Origin: Cellulosimicrobium funkei
Lineage (GTDB): Bacteria; Actinomycetota; Actinomycetes; Actinomycetales; Cellulomonadaceae
Direction of reading: 5' to 3'
Length of the DNA stretch: 64,000 bases
Assembly (NCBI RefSeq): GCF_004519295.1
Contig: NZ_SOZH01000007.1
Coordinates: forward strand, 124,001 to 188,000
The notes beneath the pieces are model-generated. The model was not told where the DNA came from, made no database searches, and was given only the letters and a program-made list of their open reading frames with translations. The position numbers and the translations under genes are program-made. Positions 18,171-51,333 of the stretch are shown here, in pieces. How positions within the stretch are numbered: position 1 is the stretch's first letter; the number at the start of each line of letters is the position of its first letter.

Positions 18171-18186
18171 GGCCGCGGGGATGCAC

Positions 18187-18223
18187 GAGGGGGAGGCGTG
18201 GTCGCGGACCACGCCTCCCCCTC
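18187..18223. terminator. Bidirectional terminator
   Basis: Perfect 17-bp stem (18187-18203 and 18207-18223) with a 3-nt loop, between the convergent SGNH-like gene and the DUF4097/PadR operon. Confidence 0.85.
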
Positions 18224-18242
18224 GGCGTCGGGGCGGTACCGC

Positions 18243-43519: not shown

Positions 43520-44962
43520 ATGAGCACACCCGACACCTCCGGCACGCCGGACGGTGCCACGCCCGACCCGACGGCGGCCCCCGGCCCCACGCCGCCCGCC
43601 GCGCCCGGTCCGGGCGGCGACACGAGCGGCTGGGGCGCGCCCTCGTACGGCGCCCCCGGCTACGGTGCGCCCGGCTCGCCGGCGCCGCAGCCGCGGTACG
43701 GCCAGTACGCGCCCGGCCAGGAGCCCGGTCAGCACCCGCCGACGGACCAGCCGCCCGCACCCGGCGCGTGGGGTGCGCCCGGCGCCGCTCCGGGCCAGCC
43801 GGGCTACGGCCAGCCGGGCTACGGCCAGCAGCCCGGCTACGGCCAGCAGCAGCCGGGGTACGGCCAGCCCGGCTACGGTCAGCAGCCCGGCTACGGCCAG
43901 CAGCAGCCGGGTTACGGCCAGCAGCCCGGTTACGGCCAGCAGCAGTTCGGGCAGGGCCAGTACGGGCAGCAGCAGTACGGCGCGCCGGGCTACGGCCCGC
44001 CGCCCGGCCTCGCGGGCGCGCCCTACGCGCCGGCCGCGGCGAAGCCCGGCATCATCCCGCTGCGCCCGCTGTCGCTCGGCGAGATCTTCGACGGCGCGTT
44101 CGGCGCGATCCGCCACAACCCCCGGGTCGTGCTCGGCATGAGCGCGCTCGTCGTCGTGGTCGCGACGCTGCTCGGCACCTTCCTCGGCTGGGCGTTCTCC
44201 GGCTACGTCGCCCAGTACTTCGACGTCGTGCTGGACGAGGCCACCTTCCCCGGCTTCGACGAGAGCTTCGCCACGACGCTCGCGAGCTCCCTCGGCATCC
44301 AGGTGACCACGTTCTTCGCCGCGCCGATCATCGCGGGTCTCCTCACGGTCTCCGTCGGCCAGTCCGCGATCGGGCGCAAGGCCGGCGTCGGCGAGGTCTG
44401 GTCCCAGGTCGGACGGCGCACGTGGTTCCTCATCGCCTTCCCCCTGCTGACCGGCCTGGCCGCGTCCGTGGCGCTCGGCCTGGCCACGCTCCTCGTCGTC
44501 GCGGGCTTCGCGGTCTCCGAGGGGCTCGGCGCGTTCCTCATCGTCGTCGCCCTGCTCGCCTGGCCCGTGCTCCTCGTCTGGGTCGGGACGCGGACCGGCC
44601 TCGTGCCTCCCGCCCTGGCGCTGGAGGGGCAGCCGTTCTGGCGGACCGTCAAGCGGGCGTGGCTGCTCACCCGCGGCAGCTTCTGGCGGCTGTTCGGCAT
44701 CTACCTGCTCGCCCTCGTGGCGATGAGCTTCGTCTCCGGCATCGTCGCGTACCCCGCGAGCCTCGCCGCGTCGTTCCTGCTCATGGCGGGCCAGACCTTC
44801 CTGTACCACCTCGTGCAGGCGATCGGCGTCGCGCTCTCGATGATCCTCACCTCGGTCTTCCTGGGCTGCATCGTCGCCCTGCTCTACATCGACGTGCGCA
44901 TGCGCCGCGAGGGCCTGGACGTCGAGCTCGCCGCGGCGGCGAGCGAGCAGCCGCCCGCATGA
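43520..44962 (+). CDS. Membrane protein with a GPDPase-membrane-type domain and a Tyr/Gly/Gln-rich tail
   Basis: 480 residues. The first 170 are disordered: Pro/Gly-rich, then many YGQQPG-type repeats. From about residue 175 ([24 protein letters not shown]) there are about six membrane helices matching the membrane domain seen in glycerophosphodiester phosphodiesterases, but no phosphodiesterase domain follows. Likely a scaffold or sensor in the envelope. It opens a coupled operon with DUF4129, DUF4350, MoxR and DUF58. The ATG at 43520 follows GGGGGA; a TAGGGT -10 box lies at 43438-43443. Confidence 0.85.
43796..43985 (+). repeat. Coding Gly/Tyr/Gln repeat tract
   Basis: About a dozen units of GGCTACGGCCAGCAG type encode PGYGQ or PGYGQQ. 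Units vary in third positions, so the tract is old enough to have drifted but still in frame. Confidence 0.85.
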
Positions 44963-45621: not shown

Positions 45622-46874
45622 GCGCCCCGACGACGTCCTCCGCACCGCCCTCCGCGGGCGCGTCGGGCGACCCGCGAGCCGTGACGACCGCCTACGTGCC
45701 CGTCGTCGGCGACGGCACGACCGCCCGCTCGCGGGCCCGCAGCCGCTGGCGCCGGGCGCGCTGGCCCGTCGCCGTCGTCGGCGCGCTGCTGCTGCTCGCC
45801 GGGCTGACGGCGCTCGCGCGGCCCGCGACGTCGGCCACGCCGCTCGCACCCGACAACCCGGGCCCCGCCGGGGCGCGCGCGGTCGCGCAGGTGCTGGGCG
45901 ACCAGGGCGTGCAGGTCACCTACGTGCGCACGGTCGCCGACGCGGTGCGCGCCGCCGAGGAGGGCGGCACGCTCCTCGTCGCACAGGGCGACTACCTGCT
46001 CGACGAGCAGGTGGAAGCGCTCGTCGGGACCCCCGCGGACCTCGTGCTCGTCGCGCCGCCCGACCACCTGCTCGCCGCCGCGACCGACGGCGGCACGGAG
46101 CTCGCGTACGACTGGGGCTCCGGCGGATCGGCACGACCGGCGCGCTGCGCGGACCCGGCCGCGCAGGCCGCGGGCTCGATCCGCTCCGACGGCGTCGGCT
46201 TCGTCGCGCTCGACGACGCGACCGTCCTCTGCTTCCCCTCCCCCGACGACCCGTCCCTGGGCGCCTACCTCGTGCACGAGGCCGACGGGCGCACGGTGCG
46301 CGCGGTGGACACGCCCGCAGTCCTGCGCAACGATTCGGTCACCGAGGACGGCAACGCCGCGCTCGCGCTCTGGACGCTCGGCGCGCACGACCGTCTCGTG
46401 TGGCTCGTGCCCGACCCGTTCGACACGTCGCTCGCCGACGACGGGAGCACGACCCCCGGGCTGTCCCTGCCGCCGTGGTTCGGCGTCGTCGCCCTGCAGG
46501 CGCTCGTCGTGCTGCTCGTGGTCGTGCTGTGGCGCGGCCGCCGGCTGGGCCCCCTCGTGACGGAGGACCTGCCGGTCGTCGTGCGCGCCGCCGAGACGAC
46601 CCGCGGCCGCGGCCGCCTCTACCGGCGCGCGGGCGCGCGCGGCCACGCCGCCGCAGGGCTGCGCGCGAGCGCCGCCGACCGCCTCGCGCACCGCCTCGGC
46701 CTGCCCCGCTCGGCCGACGCCCCCACCGTCGTCGACGCCGTCGCCCGCGCGACGGGTCGGCCGGGCGACCAGGTCGCCCAGCTCCTGTACGGACCACCAC
46801 CCGCCGACGACGCGGCGCTGCTCGAGCTCGCGCGTCACCTTGACCGGATCGAGAGCGAGGTCTACCACTCGTGA
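45618..46874 (+). CDS. DUF4350-domain membrane protein
   Basis: 418 residues. Membrane helix near residues 50-67, then an extracytoplasmic domain (GARAVAQVLGDQGVQVTYVRT, LLVAQGDYLLDEQVEAL, TPADLVLVAPPDHLL) resembling a glutamine-amidotransferase-like Rossmann fold without its Cys nucleophile. A second helix near 290-310 follows, with a cytoplasmic tail rich in Arg/Ala. Corresponds to the Rv3691 position in the mycobacterial cluster, as I recall. ATGA and GTGA overlaps on both sides show tight translational coupling. Confidence 0.87.
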   Translation: MSAPTTSSAPPSAGASGDPRAVTTAYVPVVGDGTTARSRARSRWRRARWPVAVVGALLLLAGLTALARPATSATPLAPDNPGPAGARAVAQVLGDQGVQVTYVRTVADAVRAAEEGGTLLVAQGDYLLDEQVEALVGTPADLVLVAPPDHLLAAATDGGTELAYDWGSGGSARPARCADPAAQAAGSIRSDGVGFVALDDATVLCFPSPDDPSLGAYLVHEADGRTVRAVDTPAVLRNDSVTEDGNAALALWTLGAHDRLVWLVPDPFDTSLADDGSTTPGLSLPPWFGVVALQALVVLLVVVLWRGRRLGPLVTEDLPVVVRAAETTRGRGRLYRRAGARGHAAAGLRASAADRLAHRLGLPRSADAPTVVDAVARATGRPGDQVAQLLYGPPPADDAALLELARHLDRIESEVYHS

Positions 46875-48040
46875 CGCACCACCCCGACGGCTCCGTGCCG
46901 CAGCCCGACCGCTACGCGCCGCCCGCCCAGGACCAGGGCGTCGCCGACCGCGTGAGCGCGGCCGCCGGCCAGCCCGTGCACCGGCCCGGGCCGCAGGCAC
47001 CCGCCCCGCAGGCGCCGTACGGCCAGGGCCACGCGCCCGCCACGCCGACCCCGAACCCCACACCCGTGCACGACGCCCCGCCCGCGCCGTCGCCCGAGCT
47101 GCGGCAGGCGCTCGCCGCCGTCCGCAGCGAGGTCGGCAAGGCCGTCGTCGGGCAGGACGGCGCCGTGACGAGCCTGCTCATCGCGCTGCTCTGCAAGGGC
47201 CACGTGCTGCTCGAGGGCGTGCCCGGCGTCGCCAAGACGCTGCTCGTGCGCACGCTCGCCGCGTCGCTCGACCTCGGCACGAAGCGCGTGCAGTTCACGC
47301 CCGACCTCATGCCCGGCGACGTCACGGGCTCGCTCGTGTACGACGCGCGGACCGCCGAGTTCTCGTTCCGCGAGGGGCCGGTCTTCACGAACCTGCTGCT
47401 CGCCGACGAGATCAACCGCACGCCCCCCAAGACCCAGGCGTCGCTCCTGGAGGCCATGGAGGAGCGGCAGGTCTCGGTCGACGGCACGCCGCGCCCGCTG
47501 CCCGACCCCTTCCTCGTCATCGCGACGCAGAACCCCGTCGAGTACGAGGGCACGTACCCGCTGCCCGAGGCGCAGCTCGACCGCTTCCTGCTCAAGGTCG
47601 TGCTGCCGCTGCCGGAGCGCGAGCAGGAGGTCGAGGTGCTCGCACGGCACGCCGCCGGCTTCAACCCGCGCGACCTCGCGGGCGCCGGGGTGCGCGCCGT
47701 CGCCGGGCGCGACGTGCTCGACCGCGCCCGCGCGGAGGTCGCGCGCGTCCAGGTCGCGCGCGAGGTGCTCGGCTACGCCGTCGACGTGTGCCGCGCGACG
47801 CGCCACTCCCCCTCGCTCTCCCTCGGCGTGTCCCCGCGCGGTGCGACGGCGCTGCTCGCCACGTCGCGCGCGTGGGCGTGGCTCTCGGGCCGCTCCTACG
47901 TGACGCCGGACGACGTCAAGGCCCTCGCGCACCCCACGCTGCGCCACCGCGTGCAGCTGCGGCCCGAGGCCGAGCTGGAGGGCGTGACGGCCGAGAGCGT
48001 GCTCGACACCGTGCTCGCGTCCGTCCCCGTCCCCCGCTGA
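46871..48040 (+). CDS. MoxR-family AAA+ ATPase
   Basis: 389 residues. After a Pro/Gly/His-rich N-terminus of about 70 residues comes the AAA+ core: Walker A GVPGVAKTLL near residue 118, Walker B LLADEINR near 177, sensor 1 IATQNPVE near 218, and the Arg finger region QLDRFLLK. The C-terminal lid has YVTPDDVKALAHPTLRHR. MoxR proteins act as chaperones that insert metals or mature partner proteins, usually with an adjacent DUF58 and VWA protein; DUF58 is next. GTG start overlaps DUF4350. Confidence 0.94.
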   Translation: MTHHPDGSVPQPDRYAPPAQDQGVADRVSAAAGQPVHRPGPQAPAPQAPYGQGHAPATPTPNPTPVHDAPPAPSPELRQALAAVRSEVGKAVVGQDGAVTSLLIALLCKGHVLLEGVPGVAKTLLVRTLAASLDLGTKRVQFTPDLMPGDVTGSLVYDARTAEFSFREGPVFTNLLLADEINRTPPKTQASLLEAMEERQVSVDGTPRPLPDPFLVIATQNPVEYEGTYPLPEAQLDRFLLKVVLPLPEREQEVEVLARHAAGFNPRDLAGAGVRAVAGRDVLDRARAEVARVQVAREVLGYAVDVCRATRHSPSLSLGVSPRGATALLATSRAWAWLSGRSYVTPDDVKALAHPTLRHRVQLRPEAELEGVTAESVLDTVLASVPVPR

Positions 48041-48050
48041 GGCGTCGCTC

Positions 48051-49343
48051 GTGGCCCTGACGTGGCGCGCCGTCGTGCTGGCGGCGCTCGGGATCGTCCC
48101 CGTGCTGCTCGTCCCCGTGCCGGGGACGGTGCTCGTGTGGACGCTGCTCGTCGTCGCGCTGTGCGTGCTCGACGCGGCCCTCGCGGCGTCCCCGCGGCGC
48201 GTCGCGATCGAGCGGCGCGTCGCGGGCTCCGTGCGGCTGACCGACGCGACGGCGTCCCGGCTCACGCTGACGAACCTCGCCCCGCGGCGGCTGCGCGCGC
48301 TCGTGCGCGACGCGTGGCCGCCGTCCGCGGGGACGCAGGTCAACCGGCACGCCGTCGACCTGACGCCGGGCGAGGCGACGCGCGTGACGACCGTGCTCGT
48401 CCCGACGCGCCGCGGCGAGCGCGTCGCGGACCGCGTGACGATCCGCTCGTTCGGCCCGCTGCGGCTCGCCGCGCGCCAGGCCTCGATCCCCGTGCCCGGG
48501 CGGCTGCGCGTGCTCCCCGAGTTCGCGTCGCGACGCCACCTCCCGAGCCGCCTCGCGCGCCTGCGCGAGATGGACGGGCGCGCCGCGGTGCAGGTGCGCG
48601 GCGAGGGCACCGAGTTCGACTCGCTGCGCGAGTACGTGCTCGGCGACGACGTCCGCTCGATCGACTGGCGCGCGTCGGCGCGCGGCCGGGACATGGTCGT
48701 GCGCACGTGGCGGCCCGAGCGCGACCGCCGCGTGCTCATCGTCGTCGACACGTCCCGCACGTCGGCGGCGCGCGTCGGGGACGCGCCGCGCCTCGACGCG
48801 AGCATCGAGGCGGCGCTGCTGCTCGCCGCTCTTGCGGGGCGCGCCGGGGACCGCGTCGAGCTCGTCGCGTACGACCGCACCGTGCGCTCGCGCGTCGCAG
48901 GGGCCGCCGGGCCGCGCCTCATGCCCGCCATGGCGGACGCCCTCGCGCCGCTCGAGCCCGCGCTCCTCGAGACCGACTGGCCCGGCCTCGTCGGCACCGT
49001 CCACGAGCGCCTGTCGCAGCGCGCGCTCGTCGTGCTCCTGTCGACGCTCGACGCCGCCGCCGTCGAGTCCGGGCTGCTGCCCGTCGTCGGGCAGCTCACG
49101 GCCAAGCACCAGGTCGTGCTCGCCGCGGCGGGCGACCCCGAGGTCGCCGCCCTGCGCGACGACCGCACCGGGACCGCCGAGGTGTACGACGCCGCGGCCG
49201 CCGCGCGCGGCGAGATCGAGCGCGCCGCCGTGACGACGGTCCTGCGCCAGCGCGGGGTCGAGGTCGTCGACGCCCTCCCCGACGACCTCGCCCCCCGCCT
49301 CGCCGACACCTACCTGGCGCTCAAGGCGGCCGGCCGCCTCTGA
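48051..49343 (+). CDS. DUF58-domain protein
   Basis: 430 residues. Two N-terminal hydrophobic segments near residues 5-45, then an Ig-like strand region, then DUF58: EFDSLREYVLGDDVRSIDWRASARGRDMVV with the conserved DxxRxIDW core. A VWA-like domain begins VLIVVDTSRTS, with its DxSxS metal site degenerate (DTSRT). It partners MoxR in the conserved cluster. The GTG at 48051 lacks a clear ribosome-binding site and is probably reached by coupling over the 10-bp gap. A short GC hairpin follows the stop. Confidence 0.93.
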   Translation: MALTWRAVVLAALGIVPVLLVPVPGTVLVWTLLVVALCVLDAALAASPRRVAIERRVAGSVRLTDATASRLTLTNLAPRRLRALVRDAWPPSAGTQVNRHAVDLTPGEATRVTTVLVPTRRGERVADRVTIRSFGPLRLAARQASIPVPGRLRVLPEFASRRHLPSRLARLREMDGRAAVQVRGEGTEFDSLREYVLGDDVRSIDWRASARGRDMVVRTWRPERDRRVLIVVDTSRTSAARVGDAPRLDASIEAALLLAALAGRAGDRVELVAYDRTVRSRVAGAAGPRLMPAMADALAPLEPALLETDWPGLVGTVHERLSQRALVVLLSTLDAAAVESGLLPVVGQLTAKHQVVLAAAGDPEVAALRDDRTGTAEVYDAAAAARGEIERAAVTTVLRQRGVEVVDALPDDLAPRLADTYLALKAAGRL

Positions 49344-49359
49344 GCCCCCGCCGGGGGGC
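49344..49359 (+). terminator. Short GC hairpin after DUF58
   Basis: GCCCCC and GGGGGC pair across 4 nt directly after the DUF58 stop. Probably ends the membrane-cluster operon. Confidence 0.5.
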
Positions 49360-49384
49360 AACCGAGCCGGAGCCGGTGGTCGCG

Positions 49385-49480
49385 CGAGGTAGAGCCGCGG
49401 TCGCACGAGGTAGAGGCCCGGTCCCACGAGGTAGAGCCGAGGCCGCGCGAGGTAGAGGCCTGGTCTCACGAGTTGAGGTT
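49385..49480 (+). repeat. 21-bp repeat array A (5 units)
   Basis: Cores CGAGGTAGAG begin at 49385, 49406, 49427 and 49448, with a degenerate CGAGTTGAGG at 49469: exactly 21 bp apart each time. The unit consensus is the core plus SCNNGGTCNCR. The cores are almost invariant while the inter-core bases vary. No reading frame is preserved convincingly. Confidence 0.85.
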
Positions 49481-49643
49481 CCCCGGGTTCGCCGAGCAGG
49501 GATCCCGGCTCCGTCTGCGGCGCCGGGCCACCTGAAGCGCCCGGTCGGGCGCCACGACCATCCGGTCGGCGCGCAACCCGTCTGAGGTGGCACGACGTCG
49601 TCGTCCCTTCGAGCGTGGGCAGGCCCACCCCGGGCGACCACGG

Positions 49644-49810
49644 CTCTACCTGGCGGAACCACCGCTCTACCTCGCGGAACCACCGCGCTACCTCGCGCAA
49701 CCCACGCCTCTACCTCGCGCAACCACCGCTCTACCTCGCGCAAACCACGCCTCTAACTCGCGGAGCTACGGCTCTACATCGGGAGACCAGGCCTCTACCT
49801 CGCGGGAGGT
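49644..49810 (-). repeat. 21-bp repeat array B (8 units), inverted relative to array A
   Basis: On the plus strand the core reads CTCTACCTCG, the reverse complement of array A, at 49644, 49665, 49686, 49708, 49729, 49751, 49772 and 49793. Spacing is 21 or 22 bp. Unit consensus on the minus strand matches array A. The 163 bp between the arrays (49481-49643) hold no gene, only short inverted repeats such as GCCACCT and AGGTGGC. Confidence 0.85.
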
Positions 49811-49850
49811 GGTTCCGGGGCCCTCTCCCCCGACCGTCAGGGGCGGGAGG

Positions 49851-49856
49851 TAGGGT
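49851..49856 (+). promoter_or_regulatory. -10 box for the 40-residue peptide and AlkZ-type gene
   Basis: TAGGGT, about 37 nt before the GTG at 49893 and 41 bp past the end of array B. Confidence 0.45.
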
Positions 49857-49892
49857 CGTCCAGCACGTCCATCCCGACCTCAGGAGACTCCC

Positions 49893-50015
49893 GTGGCCTG
49901 GCAGCCGACCGACCCCCGGCAGCGCGTCCGGCGCAACCGTCGCGTCGCGATCATCGTCGTGGTGGCGCTGCTCGCGACGTTCCTCGTCCCGGCGCTCGCG
50001 ATCGTCCTGTCCTGA
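49893..50015 (+). CDS. Small single-pass membrane protein (40 residues)
   Basis: GTG start behind AGGAG, stop at 50015. The protein begins MAWQPTDPRQRVRRNRRV, an Arg-rich cytoplasmic tail, then one hydrophobic helix of about 20 residues (IIVVVALLATFLVPALAIVL). The positive-inside rule predicts N-terminus in the cytoplasm. Its stop is 7 nt before the next gene, so the two are co-transcribed. It is too short for most gene callers. No homolog is recognised; it could be a membrane-anchoring or toxin-like peptide, but nothing shows that. Confidence 0.75.
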   Translation: MAWQPTDPRQRVRRNRRVAIIVVVALLATFLVPALAIVLS

Positions 50016-50022
50016 CGGGCCG

Positions 50023-51333
50023 ATGGCCGACGAGCGGTTCGGGCCGCGGCTGAGCCACGACGACCTCAACCGGGCGCTGCTCGCGCGCCAGCACCTCGCG
50101 GCCCCGCGCGACGCGACCGTGCTGGACGAGGTGCGCCACCTCGTCGGCCTGCAGTCGCAGGTCCCGTCGTCGCCGTACCCGGCGCTCTGGTCGCGCCTGG
50201 CGGGCTTCGCGCCGGACGACCTGGGCGACCGCCTGCTCGACCACCAGGTGGTGCGCGTCGCGACGCTGCGTGGCACGGTGCACCTCGTCGCGGCCGACGA
50301 CGCGCTCGAGCTGACGGCGCTCGCCCGCCCCGGTCTGGCGACCTACCTGCGGTCGCGGAACCAGCACGGGACGGCGCTCGCCCATGTCGACCTCGACGAC
50401 CTCGAGCGCGCGGCGCGCGACCTGCTCGCGGACCCGCTGACGTCGGTCGAGCTGGGGCTGCGCCTCGCGGAGCGCTGGCCCGACGTCGACCCGAAGCACC
50501 TCGCGTACGCGGCCCGCTGCCTGCTCCCGCTCGTGCAGGTCCCGCCCCGCGGCCTGTGGGGCGCGAGCGGCACGGGCACGACGACCACCTGGACGACGGC
50601 GCAGGCCTGGCTCGGGCGGTCCGACGACGCCCTCGACGCCGTCGCGCACGGCACGGACCCGGACGCGACGCTCGCGGCGCGCGTCCGGCTCGTGCGCCGG
50701 TACCTCGCGGCGTTCGGCCCGGCGTCGGTGGCGGACGCGCAGCGCTGGGCGGGCCTGACCCGGCTGCGCGCCGCGGTCGACGTGCTGCGACCGGAGCTCG
50801 TGACGTTCACCGGCCCGGCCGGCACCGAGCTCCTCGACCTGCCCGACGCGCCGCGCCCACCGGGCGACGAGCCCGTGCCCGTGGTCCTCGCGGGCGACTT
50901 CGACAACCTGCTCCTGTCCCACGACGACCGCACGCGCGTCCTCGGGGACCTGCCGGTCACGAGCGTCGTGAGCGTCAACGGTCAGGTCGCGGCGGCGGTC
51001 CTCGTCGACGGCCGCGTCGCGGGCGCCTGGACGGCCCGCCCGGCGGCACCGGCGGCGCGCAGCGCCCGAGCAGCGACCGCGAACACCCCTAGCGCCCGAG
51101 CAGCGGCCCCGGCCGACGGGACGCGCCCGGTCGACGGGACGGACGTCGTCGTGCACGTCGAGGTGCGGCCCCTGCGCGCACGGAGCGGCCCCGGCGCGTC
51201 CGGCGGCGAGGCGCCGAGCCTCGCCGACCGACTGCGCGACCCCGCGGTGCGCGACGAGGTCGTCGCGCGCGCCGAGGACTGGGTGCGGTGCGGGTGGCCG
51301 GACGCGCGGGCGCGCGTCGTCGTCGACGGCTGA
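50023..51333 (+). CDS. AlkZ-type winged-helix DNA glycosylase (QxQ class)
   Basis: 436 residues of the HTH_42 superfamily. Seen: VGLQSQVPSSPY with the catalytic motif Q44-S-Q46, the hallmark of the AlkZ branch, which unhooks bulky alkyl crosslinks such as those from azinomycin in Streptomyces. Also LRGTVHLVAADDA, VAGDFDNLLLSHDDRTRV and a disordered Ala-rich insert near residues 345-375. AlkZ proteins often confer resistance to a self-made or environmental genotoxin, but no toxin cluster is visible here. The ATG at 50023 follows the small membrane peptide gene by 7 bp. Confidence 0.88.
   Translation: MADERFGPRLSHDDLNRALLARQHLAAPRDATVLDEVRHLVGLQSQVPSSPYPALWSRLAGFAPDDLGDRLLDHQVVRVATLRGTVHLVAADDALELTALARPGLATYLRSRNQHGTALAHVDLDDLERAARDLLADPLTSVELGLRLAERWPDVDPKHLAYAARCLLPLVQVPPRGLWGASGTGTTTTWTTAQAWLGRSDDALDAVAHGTDPDATLAARVRLVRRYLAAFGPASVADAQRWAGLTRLRAAVDVLRPELVTFTGPAGTELLDLPDAPRPPGDEPVPVVLAGDFDNLLLSHDDRTRVLGDLPVTSVVSVNGQVAAAVLVDGRVAGAWTARPAAPAARSARAATANTPSARAAAPADGTRPVDGTDVVVHVEVRPLRARSGPGASGGEAPSLADRLRDPAVRDEVVARAEDWVRCGWPDARARVVVDG

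Follow-up and report, generated by a model that had tools for sequence, protein, structure and literature searches.

The facing repeat arrays described here for Cellulosimicrobium funkei are one copy of a genus-wide interspersed repeat family. The family is apparently undescribed so far, and no description of the 21-bp repeat was found in the open-access literature (PMC). We are inclined to think, with confidence just above even, that its units are recognised by a sequence-specific putative factor whose preference would have drifted between species. An earlier note on this DNA had suggested a protein bound repeatedly on one face of the helix, or an RNA that folds back on itself. That interpretation is partly supported: the repeat does occur elsewhere, it is capable of folding back and there is indirect support for a protein, but the copies are not always inverted and a long stem is not favoured.

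Facing arrays at the window site

The window is the whole 64,000-nucleotide stretch of DNA that was analysed, and positions are numbered from its first letter. The facing 21-bp repeat arrays reported in the earlier note were confirmed, four intact and one decayed forward units being followed by eight reverse units. The features of the window are listed below, with gene calls taken from a codon-usage model caller and not from curated annotation.

46871–48040, plus strand: MoxR-type AAA ATPase gene (PF07726, PF17863), before the DUF58 gene
48051–49343, plus strand: DUF58 protein gene (PF01882, E 2e-25), upstream of array A
49385–49478, plus strand: array A, four intact 21-bp units (cores at 49385, 49406, 49427 and 49448) and a decayed one at 49469–49478
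49479–49636, no strand: inter-arm spacer, kept apart by blastn grouping (E 1e-5, 50 bp or more) from the central module that other elements have
49637–49805, minus strand: array B, eight reverse units (cores at 49644, 49665, 49686, 49708, 49729, 49751, 49772 and 49793)
49849–49858, plus strand: promoter-like GGTAGGGTCG, read by eye, a putative promoter
50023–51333, plus strand: AlkZ-like DNA glycosylase gene (PF06224, E 6.8e-64), downstream of the arrays
18186–18224, no strand: second, decayed element between convergent genes, with one plus and one minus unit forming a hairpin-capable palindrome

Array A begins 42 bp past the last base of the DUF58 gene. The five units first counted in it comprise four with the exact core CGAGGTAGAG and a fifth (CGAGTTGAGG, 49469) that is in register yet decayed, while the eight units of array B were all recovered in the opposite orientation, as reverse cores between 49644 and 49802. 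The description of the core as nearly invariant holds for array A but is only fair for array B, in which four of the eight cores are exact and four have one mismatch. Spacing is 21 bp in array A and 21 or 22 bp in array B, as first read, and the gap between the arrays, given as 163 bp, measures approximately 160–170 bp. The promoter-like GGTAGGGTCG is kept in 13 of the 14 window-site spacers reaching that far (own included), and its position just outside array B suggests that the element ends before it. The 40-aa ORF at 49893–50015, before the AlkZ-like gene, has no Pfam match. In total, the window contains 32 cores with at most one mismatch, 12 of them in the arrays, versus a mean of 4.6 (sd 2.1, maximum 11) in 100 shuffles. 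Both cores of the palindrome at 18186–18224 have CGAGGGGGAG, and its ortholog in genome G009 (L232) is changed alike in both arms. Apart from these elements, a CAGCCCGGCTACGGCCAG tandem repeat with periods of 18 and 54 bp (score 234) is found at 43796–43997.

A repeat family in Cellulosimicrobium

The 10-bp core is present in 254 copies in the 4.38-Mb own genome, against 8 for the reversed pattern used as a control, and core doublets number 90 against 0. The search for the core with 21-bp spacing, proposed in the earlier note, was thus positive, with the doublets grouping into 35 sites. The own-genome loci examined comprise the 34 doublet sites that lie beyond the window, plus nine further places that have cores and no doublet. 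Same-strand neighbours 15–30 bp apart in these loci are separated by 21 bp in 137 of 149 cases, by 22 bp in seven and by 20 bp in five. The unit can be written approximately as CGAGGTAG-NN-(C/G)C-NN-GGT followed by four variable bases, with the core first and conservation extending to GGT. Eight of the unit bases, GGTAGAGC, resemble the tRNA D-arm, presumably by chance.

Exact doublets occur in 13 of the 17 Cellulosimicrobium genomes, and 14 of the 17 match when bases 3, 8, 9, 12 and 13 are left free with CC and GGT fixed. Among the matches listed for named genomes, at least 100 exact-doublet stretches were obtained, most of them from Cellulosimicrobium, two from Oerskovia, five filed under Sphaerisporangium cinnabarinum and four under other labels. 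The record filed as Sphaerisporangium cinnabarinum ATCC 31213 (L010, L011, L028, L034 and L100; QAPD records) is a close match to Cellulosimicrobium and is probably mislabelled or contaminated. In the family sample, the 9-bp core has matches in 22 of 150 genomes and five of 25 genera. Three of these genera have a single match in one genome each, which is about the control level (one match in 150 genomes), so that the firm signal is confined to Cellulosimicrobium and genus g23, which is probably Oerskovia. A 20-bp variant was observed in G003 (e.g. C57:5775–5843), where the core CGAGGTAGAG is kept and the linker is different (GGGTTCTC).

Geometry and position relative to genes

Copies outside the window had been expected always as inverted pairs. 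They do occur elsewhere and most are inverted, but not all: of the 38 own intergenic sites that contain two or more units, 31 are forward-then-reverse, three are reverse-then-forward and four have a single orientation. The commonest element consists of two unit arms in facing orientation, its most frequent form being a palindrome in which the arms abut over 2 bp. A 2-bp centre is found in 45 of the 108 forward-reverse pairs from all loci (AT, GT or AC in 38 of the 45), and in the facing dimer GTAG is seen to pair with CTAC. In 37 of the 38 sites the spacer is bounded by the 3' end of some gene. The sites lie between convergent genes in 17 cases, codirectional genes in 20 and divergent genes in one, compared with 30, 111 and 59 of 200 spacers that lack units (by Fisher test, p = 1e-4 for the convergent excess and 1.5e-4 for the divergent deficit). 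At 18 of the 20 codirectional sites the upstream stop is the nearer gene boundary, and the stop codon of a flanking gene is the TAG of a core in 17 cases among the 38 sites. Counting orthologs, which make the arm-orientation cases non-independent, arrays of one orientation follow the sense of the upstream gene in 11 of 11 codirectional cases, and that of the gene with the nearer 3' end in eight of nine cases between convergent genes. A bias in arm length was rejected: when the two arms of 49 codirectional elements are compared, the upstream one proves longer in 17, shorter in 19 and equal in 13.

Four genes with internal arrays are found among the own loci, against the 38 intergenic sites. Across species there are 25 multi-unit in-gene cases, which include orthologs and hence are not independent (approximately eight gene groups by eye); 19 are antisense only, four mixed and two sense only, both of the latter lying 40–57 bp from the stop. 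Antisense units share one frame in 22 of the 25 cases and give heptapeptide repeats such as DQGSTSR, while one case (L085) formed no cluster in the frame test. The genes include those for a pyridoxal-dependent decarboxylase, an EamA transporter and a xanthine dehydrogenase-like protein. Because 22 of the 25 cases use one frame, the antisense bias is explained by coding tolerance; directional blocking of transcription, at which both the sense-only single arrays and the antisense in-gene arrays hint, was therefore rejected as a cause of that bias and is kept only as part of the terminator explanation discussed below. The earlier note took a reading frame conserved through the arrays as the mark of a coding microsatellite. 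The frame is kept in 22 of the 25 in-gene cases listed, but this concerns only a minority of the arrays.

Species-specific bases in the core

With bases 8–9 freed, AG was found in most of the listed genomes, AA in G012 and mainly TA in G015 and G016, whereas G011 is mixed (TA, AA and GA); 11% of the G015 units have CA instead of TA. Forty array sites were taken from these four genomes, fetched with bases 8–9 free. An ortholog in the reference loci exists for 18 of the 40, and units are present in all 18 orthologs (36 of 39 site pairs). In the following comparison one reference site may count via several strains, and the AG share is partly ascertained, the reference loci having been fetched with the AG core: at the ortholog-bearing sites, G015 has TA in 26 of 26 units and its orthologs AG in 42 of 45, G012 has AA in 22 of 23 and its orthologs AG in 47 of 52, G016 has TA in four of four and its orthologs AG in 12 of 12, and G011 has five AA and four TA with AG in eight of nine units of its orthologs.

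Across four genomes, Fst reaches 0.78 and 0.86 at positions 8–9, versus 0.46 at position 13, 0.15 at 10, 0.09 at 3 and 0.01–0.03 at 12 and 17–20. Within species, diversity at bases 8–9 is five- to ninefold below that of linker bases 12 and 17–20, both measures being based on units selected with several core bases held fixed and on a sample fetched in part by the AG core. At positions 0–8, identity is at least 96% among units located solely by their register with a detected unit on either side (n = 302), whereas linkers are of 91 types among 163 own units. With linkers so diverse and the core nearly fixed, the core, the two species-specific bases included, looks constrained within species. The low core diversity among adjacent units could partly be due to homogenisation. 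Linker types common with the AG species account for 53–64% of the units in G012 and for 0–7% in G015, and linker order differs between the orthologous arrays compared. Since G015 shares few linker types with the AG species, replacement of whole units fits its state as well as substitution of two bases, and besides base change, unit replacement is also under way. The notion of a protein bound repeatedly thus gains indirect support from bases 8–9, which have low diversity within species yet differ between species, the binding itself being putative.

Turnover between genomes

Fifteen genomes, the own genome among them, yielded the window site, in one case cut by a contig end; the spacer ranges from 68 to 923 bp and at least one unit is present in 10 of the 15. 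The nearest relative, G009, shares 97% identity along 646 bp of the upstream gene and has two decayed units at this site versus twelve in the window. Of 30 sites queried against G009, 27 aligned on both flanks, and all 27 differ in length from the window genome, G009 being shorter at most and longer at some, with lengths depending on the ends of the BLAST alignments. Their flanks are mostly 90–100% identical (lowest 72%), and array remnants are visible at most sites. The four in-gene own sites differ from G009 by 21, 42, 42 and 63 bp, and arms gain and lose length mostly by whole 21-bp units. At one site, a module-bearing element in two strains (L013, L038) corresponds to an abutting palindrome in the window genome (L115). 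At variable positions, the likeness of adjacent units is 0.74 and that of units paired at random 0.59, in counts that include orthologs. Many of the orthologous sites carry old arrays, and recent movement was therefore not caught.

Folding of the arms

The suggestion that an RNA folds back on itself stands as regards physical capacity, the whole element having z = -7.5, but not as regards a selected long stem. Three short elements give z = -7.9, -8.9 and -10.1, the first and last of these with -71 and -77 kcal/mol, while the arm of array A alone folds no better than shuffles (z +1.0). In counts that include orthologs and are hence not independent, the innermost units of 50 abutting elements have a complementarity of 0.78 versus 0.675 (sd 0.022), a value attained by none of 1000 shuffles, whereas that of the outer units is 0.56 in register (n = 33) and 0.53 out of register (n = 68). 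Pairing is therefore above chance in the innermost units only, a long selected stem is unsupported, and selection for it was rejected. The helical phasing proposed in the earlier note agrees with the 21/22-bp spacing but is not required by it, because slippage by 21 bp or stem register yields equal spacing; phasing as such was set aside as inseparable from these two.

The elements might instead have been selected where they stand, as terminators of transcription in both directions or as stabilisers of mRNA 3' ends, with a hairpin ending transcription from both sides. This would suit the sites at gene 3' ends, the strong folds of the two short elements, the above-chance complementarity of the innermost units and the sense orientation of single-orientation arrays (11 of 11 codirectional and eight of nine convergent cases). 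However, a hairpin requires complementarity and not a fixed core, the outer units are barely more complementary in register than out of it, arm A by itself does not fold better than chance, and elements have shrunk, been lost or been enlarged in a closely related sister. Furthermore, no TTTT is found within 25 nt beyond either end in any of the 41 own clusters. We consider this explanation unlikely. Strong hairpins form with both arms, but only the innermost units are complementary beyond chance, so that the arrays may influence transcription or mRNA ends, though not as the main cause of the core.

The central module and its hairpin

Among the 35 pairs whose arms stand 60 bp or more apart, 25 have a homologous central module in common (L097 and L154 among the 25 being one locus). 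The module is up to approximately 660 bp long, occurs in both orientations and has matches in all 17 genus genomes. For inverted ends with a common interior, as in MITEs, the picture is mixed: 31 of 38 sites are forward-then-reverse and 25 of 35 wide-gap elements share the interior, but the window copy does not. These inward-facing site arrays at both ends, together with the common module, could point to a non-autonomous transposon with several transposase sites per end, either Tn7-/Mu-like or foldback-like. Against this, target-site duplication was not seen in 29 elements, as judged by exact matches, which would miss decayed ones; at any offset, at most three of the 29 share a 3-mer, two a 4- or 5-mer, one a 6-mer and none an 8- or 9-mer. 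In addition, the arms often abut with nothing between them (the 45 of 108 pairs with a 2-bp centre), and TRF places unit-type arrays beside the best module copy in just eight of 17 genus loci (L169–L185). A transposon of this kind therefore seems improbable. An 845-bp element has no match in plasmid or phage collections at E 1e-5, and plasmids and phages were rejected as carriers.

A 171-bp piece of the module is found in 34 of the 150 family genomes and seven of 25 genera (own genus included), the match outside the genus being mostly to its middle. This middle is a hairpin with a conserved loop of approximately 46 nt (TACCATCCG, an inner hairpin and TCCCGCCAGGCCCGCCAC) and a stem that varies from site to site; at several loci it lies directly past a stop codon. 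Long near-perfect site-specific stems are seen, for example, in L217:712–808, L219:734–830 and L214:727–823. The hairpin alignment A1 comprises 37 of 71 distinct copies, hand-picked against near-duplicates, and the structure was read from A1 itself. In it, 91.0% of cells pair, 23 of 25 pairs are changed on both sides (183 double-change cells), and none of 500 shuffles attains the observed value on any of five measures; when partners are slid by 1–3 columns, pairing falls to 39–53%. Single-sided changes, such as those to G-U, amount to eight cells, and this scarcity would fit RNA alone less well than copying or constraint acting on the DNA. A covariance model search recovered the hairpin in at least 12 of 248 genomes, at least nine of 86 genera and at least five families of the order, which is a lower bound since filters were strict and 16 candidates were scored per genome.

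The window copy is without the hairpin: the whole window has no match to model R1 below E 0.05. Searches against Rfam gave no match at the gathering score in seven element-bearing loci, a best E of 0.35, outside the arrays, for window positions 49000–50100, and in six other-genus loci only four sub-threshold microRNA matches, with nothing credible at a relaxed threshold. Three or more tandem units of approximately 20 bp accompany the hairpin in one of 31 other-genus loci (L213), with a different sequence. We treat the hairpin as a separate, associated element. In other genera, a repeat of approximately 20 bp with core CGAGTCAGCGC is tandem in L213 (6.6 copies) and, by eye, inverted in L212, an architecture similar to that of the Cellulosimicrobium arrays.

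Relation to known repeats

As described by Di Nocera (2013, PMC3733652), GTAG REPs form facing dimers with GTAG outside, lie at 3' ends, supply TAG stop codons and have intragenic copies. By the same description (PMC3733652), the Cellulosimicrobium family is similar to REP/BIME sequences (GTAG and CGTC REPs) in being a high-copy short interspersed repeat with facing dimers and copies inside genes, located mainly between convergent or codirectional genes, near 3' ends and with a TAG stop. These shared traits, and the GTAG contained in the core, speak for REPs or REPINs that bear the GTAG tag and depend on a RAYT transposase for movement. The location near the 3' ends of convergent or codirectional genes indeed applies to 37 of 38 sites, but GTAG REPs have a palindromic unit of 20–40 bp with an unpaired GTAG at one end, and the 21-bp unit is not itself a palindrome: in 202 single-unit windows, each compared with its own shuffles, the mean z is +0.58 and only three beat 95% of the shuffles in folding. 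Unlike REP/BIME, the units are joined head to tail into arms (eight units in array B), two bases of the unit vary by species, and no Y1 transposase was found in the genus. Y1_Tnp (RAYT) was found in none of 17 genus genomes at E 0.001, with the control positive in five of 14 genomes, including E. coli; RAYT mobilisation was rejected on this ground and we regard it as very unlikely. Since the unit is no palindrome and neither Y1 transposase nor target duplication was found, we do not file the family in the REP-RAYT system but consider it a new variant of interspersed palindromic repeats outside that system. For the same lack of target-site duplication and Y1 transposase, mobility is deduced from dispersal only.

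Equally implausible is a neutral minisatellite shaped by replication slippage and gene conversion alone, which would account for in-gene shifts by whole units and for the likeness of adjacent units (0.74 versus 0.59) but leaves unexplained the spread to at least 35 sites, the inverted geometry and a conservation limited to the core (91 linker types among 163 own units).

BOX elements of Streptococcus pneumoniae, judged probably parasitic by the authors of their description (PMC3049150), are also modular, with a variable number of tandem units, a predicted RNA fold and over-representation between convergent genes. There, the boxB tandem lies between boxA and boxC, whereas in Cellulosimicrobium the units form both inverted arms and a unique module, if any, is central. 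Rickettsia palindromic elements, as summarised in PMC3733652, are likewise inserted in frame in unrelated genes. Different from them are the 21-bp units and the nearly constant use of one antisense frame with heptapeptides such as DQGSTSR.

Proposed explanation and significance

The explanation that we favour is an interspersed repeat family with units recognised by a sequence-specific factor, which may be a mobilising enzyme or a DNA-binding protein. The preference of this putative factor would have drifted between species, units fitting it being kept or multiplied while others decay. Slippage or recombination between the 21-bp repeats would alter arm lengths, and purifying selection against copies upstream of or inside genes could leave copies mainly at 3' ends. 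Inverted arms, when transcribed, can form strong predicted hairpins and may insulate neighbouring genes.

Eukaryotic foldback elements have inverted arms of short tandem repeats, with variable arm length and a centre that is variable or absent. By analogy, the Cellulosimicrobium arrays appear to share this arm architecture, but they are bacterial, far shorter and tied to gene 3' ends. Only tentatively, and with more doubt than confidence, we raise the possibility of a new bacterial foldback-like class, in which phased 21-bp sites form inverted arms, often with a hairpin module, and in which factor specificity was switched at two adjacent bases between species with hundreds of sites rewritten in concert.

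In practical terms, the arrays are hypervariable markers, and the stop codons and heptapeptide inserts that they supply complicate gene annotation. The conserved-loop hairpin merits a study of its own. For the family as a whole, the repeats are a natural record of how a recognition-like sequence changes in step across a whole genome, at dozens of its sites. Orthologous sites and three species types (AG, AA and TA) can be compared, so that the concerted evolution of dispersed bacterial repeats, and the nature of their putative recogniser, is directly testable.
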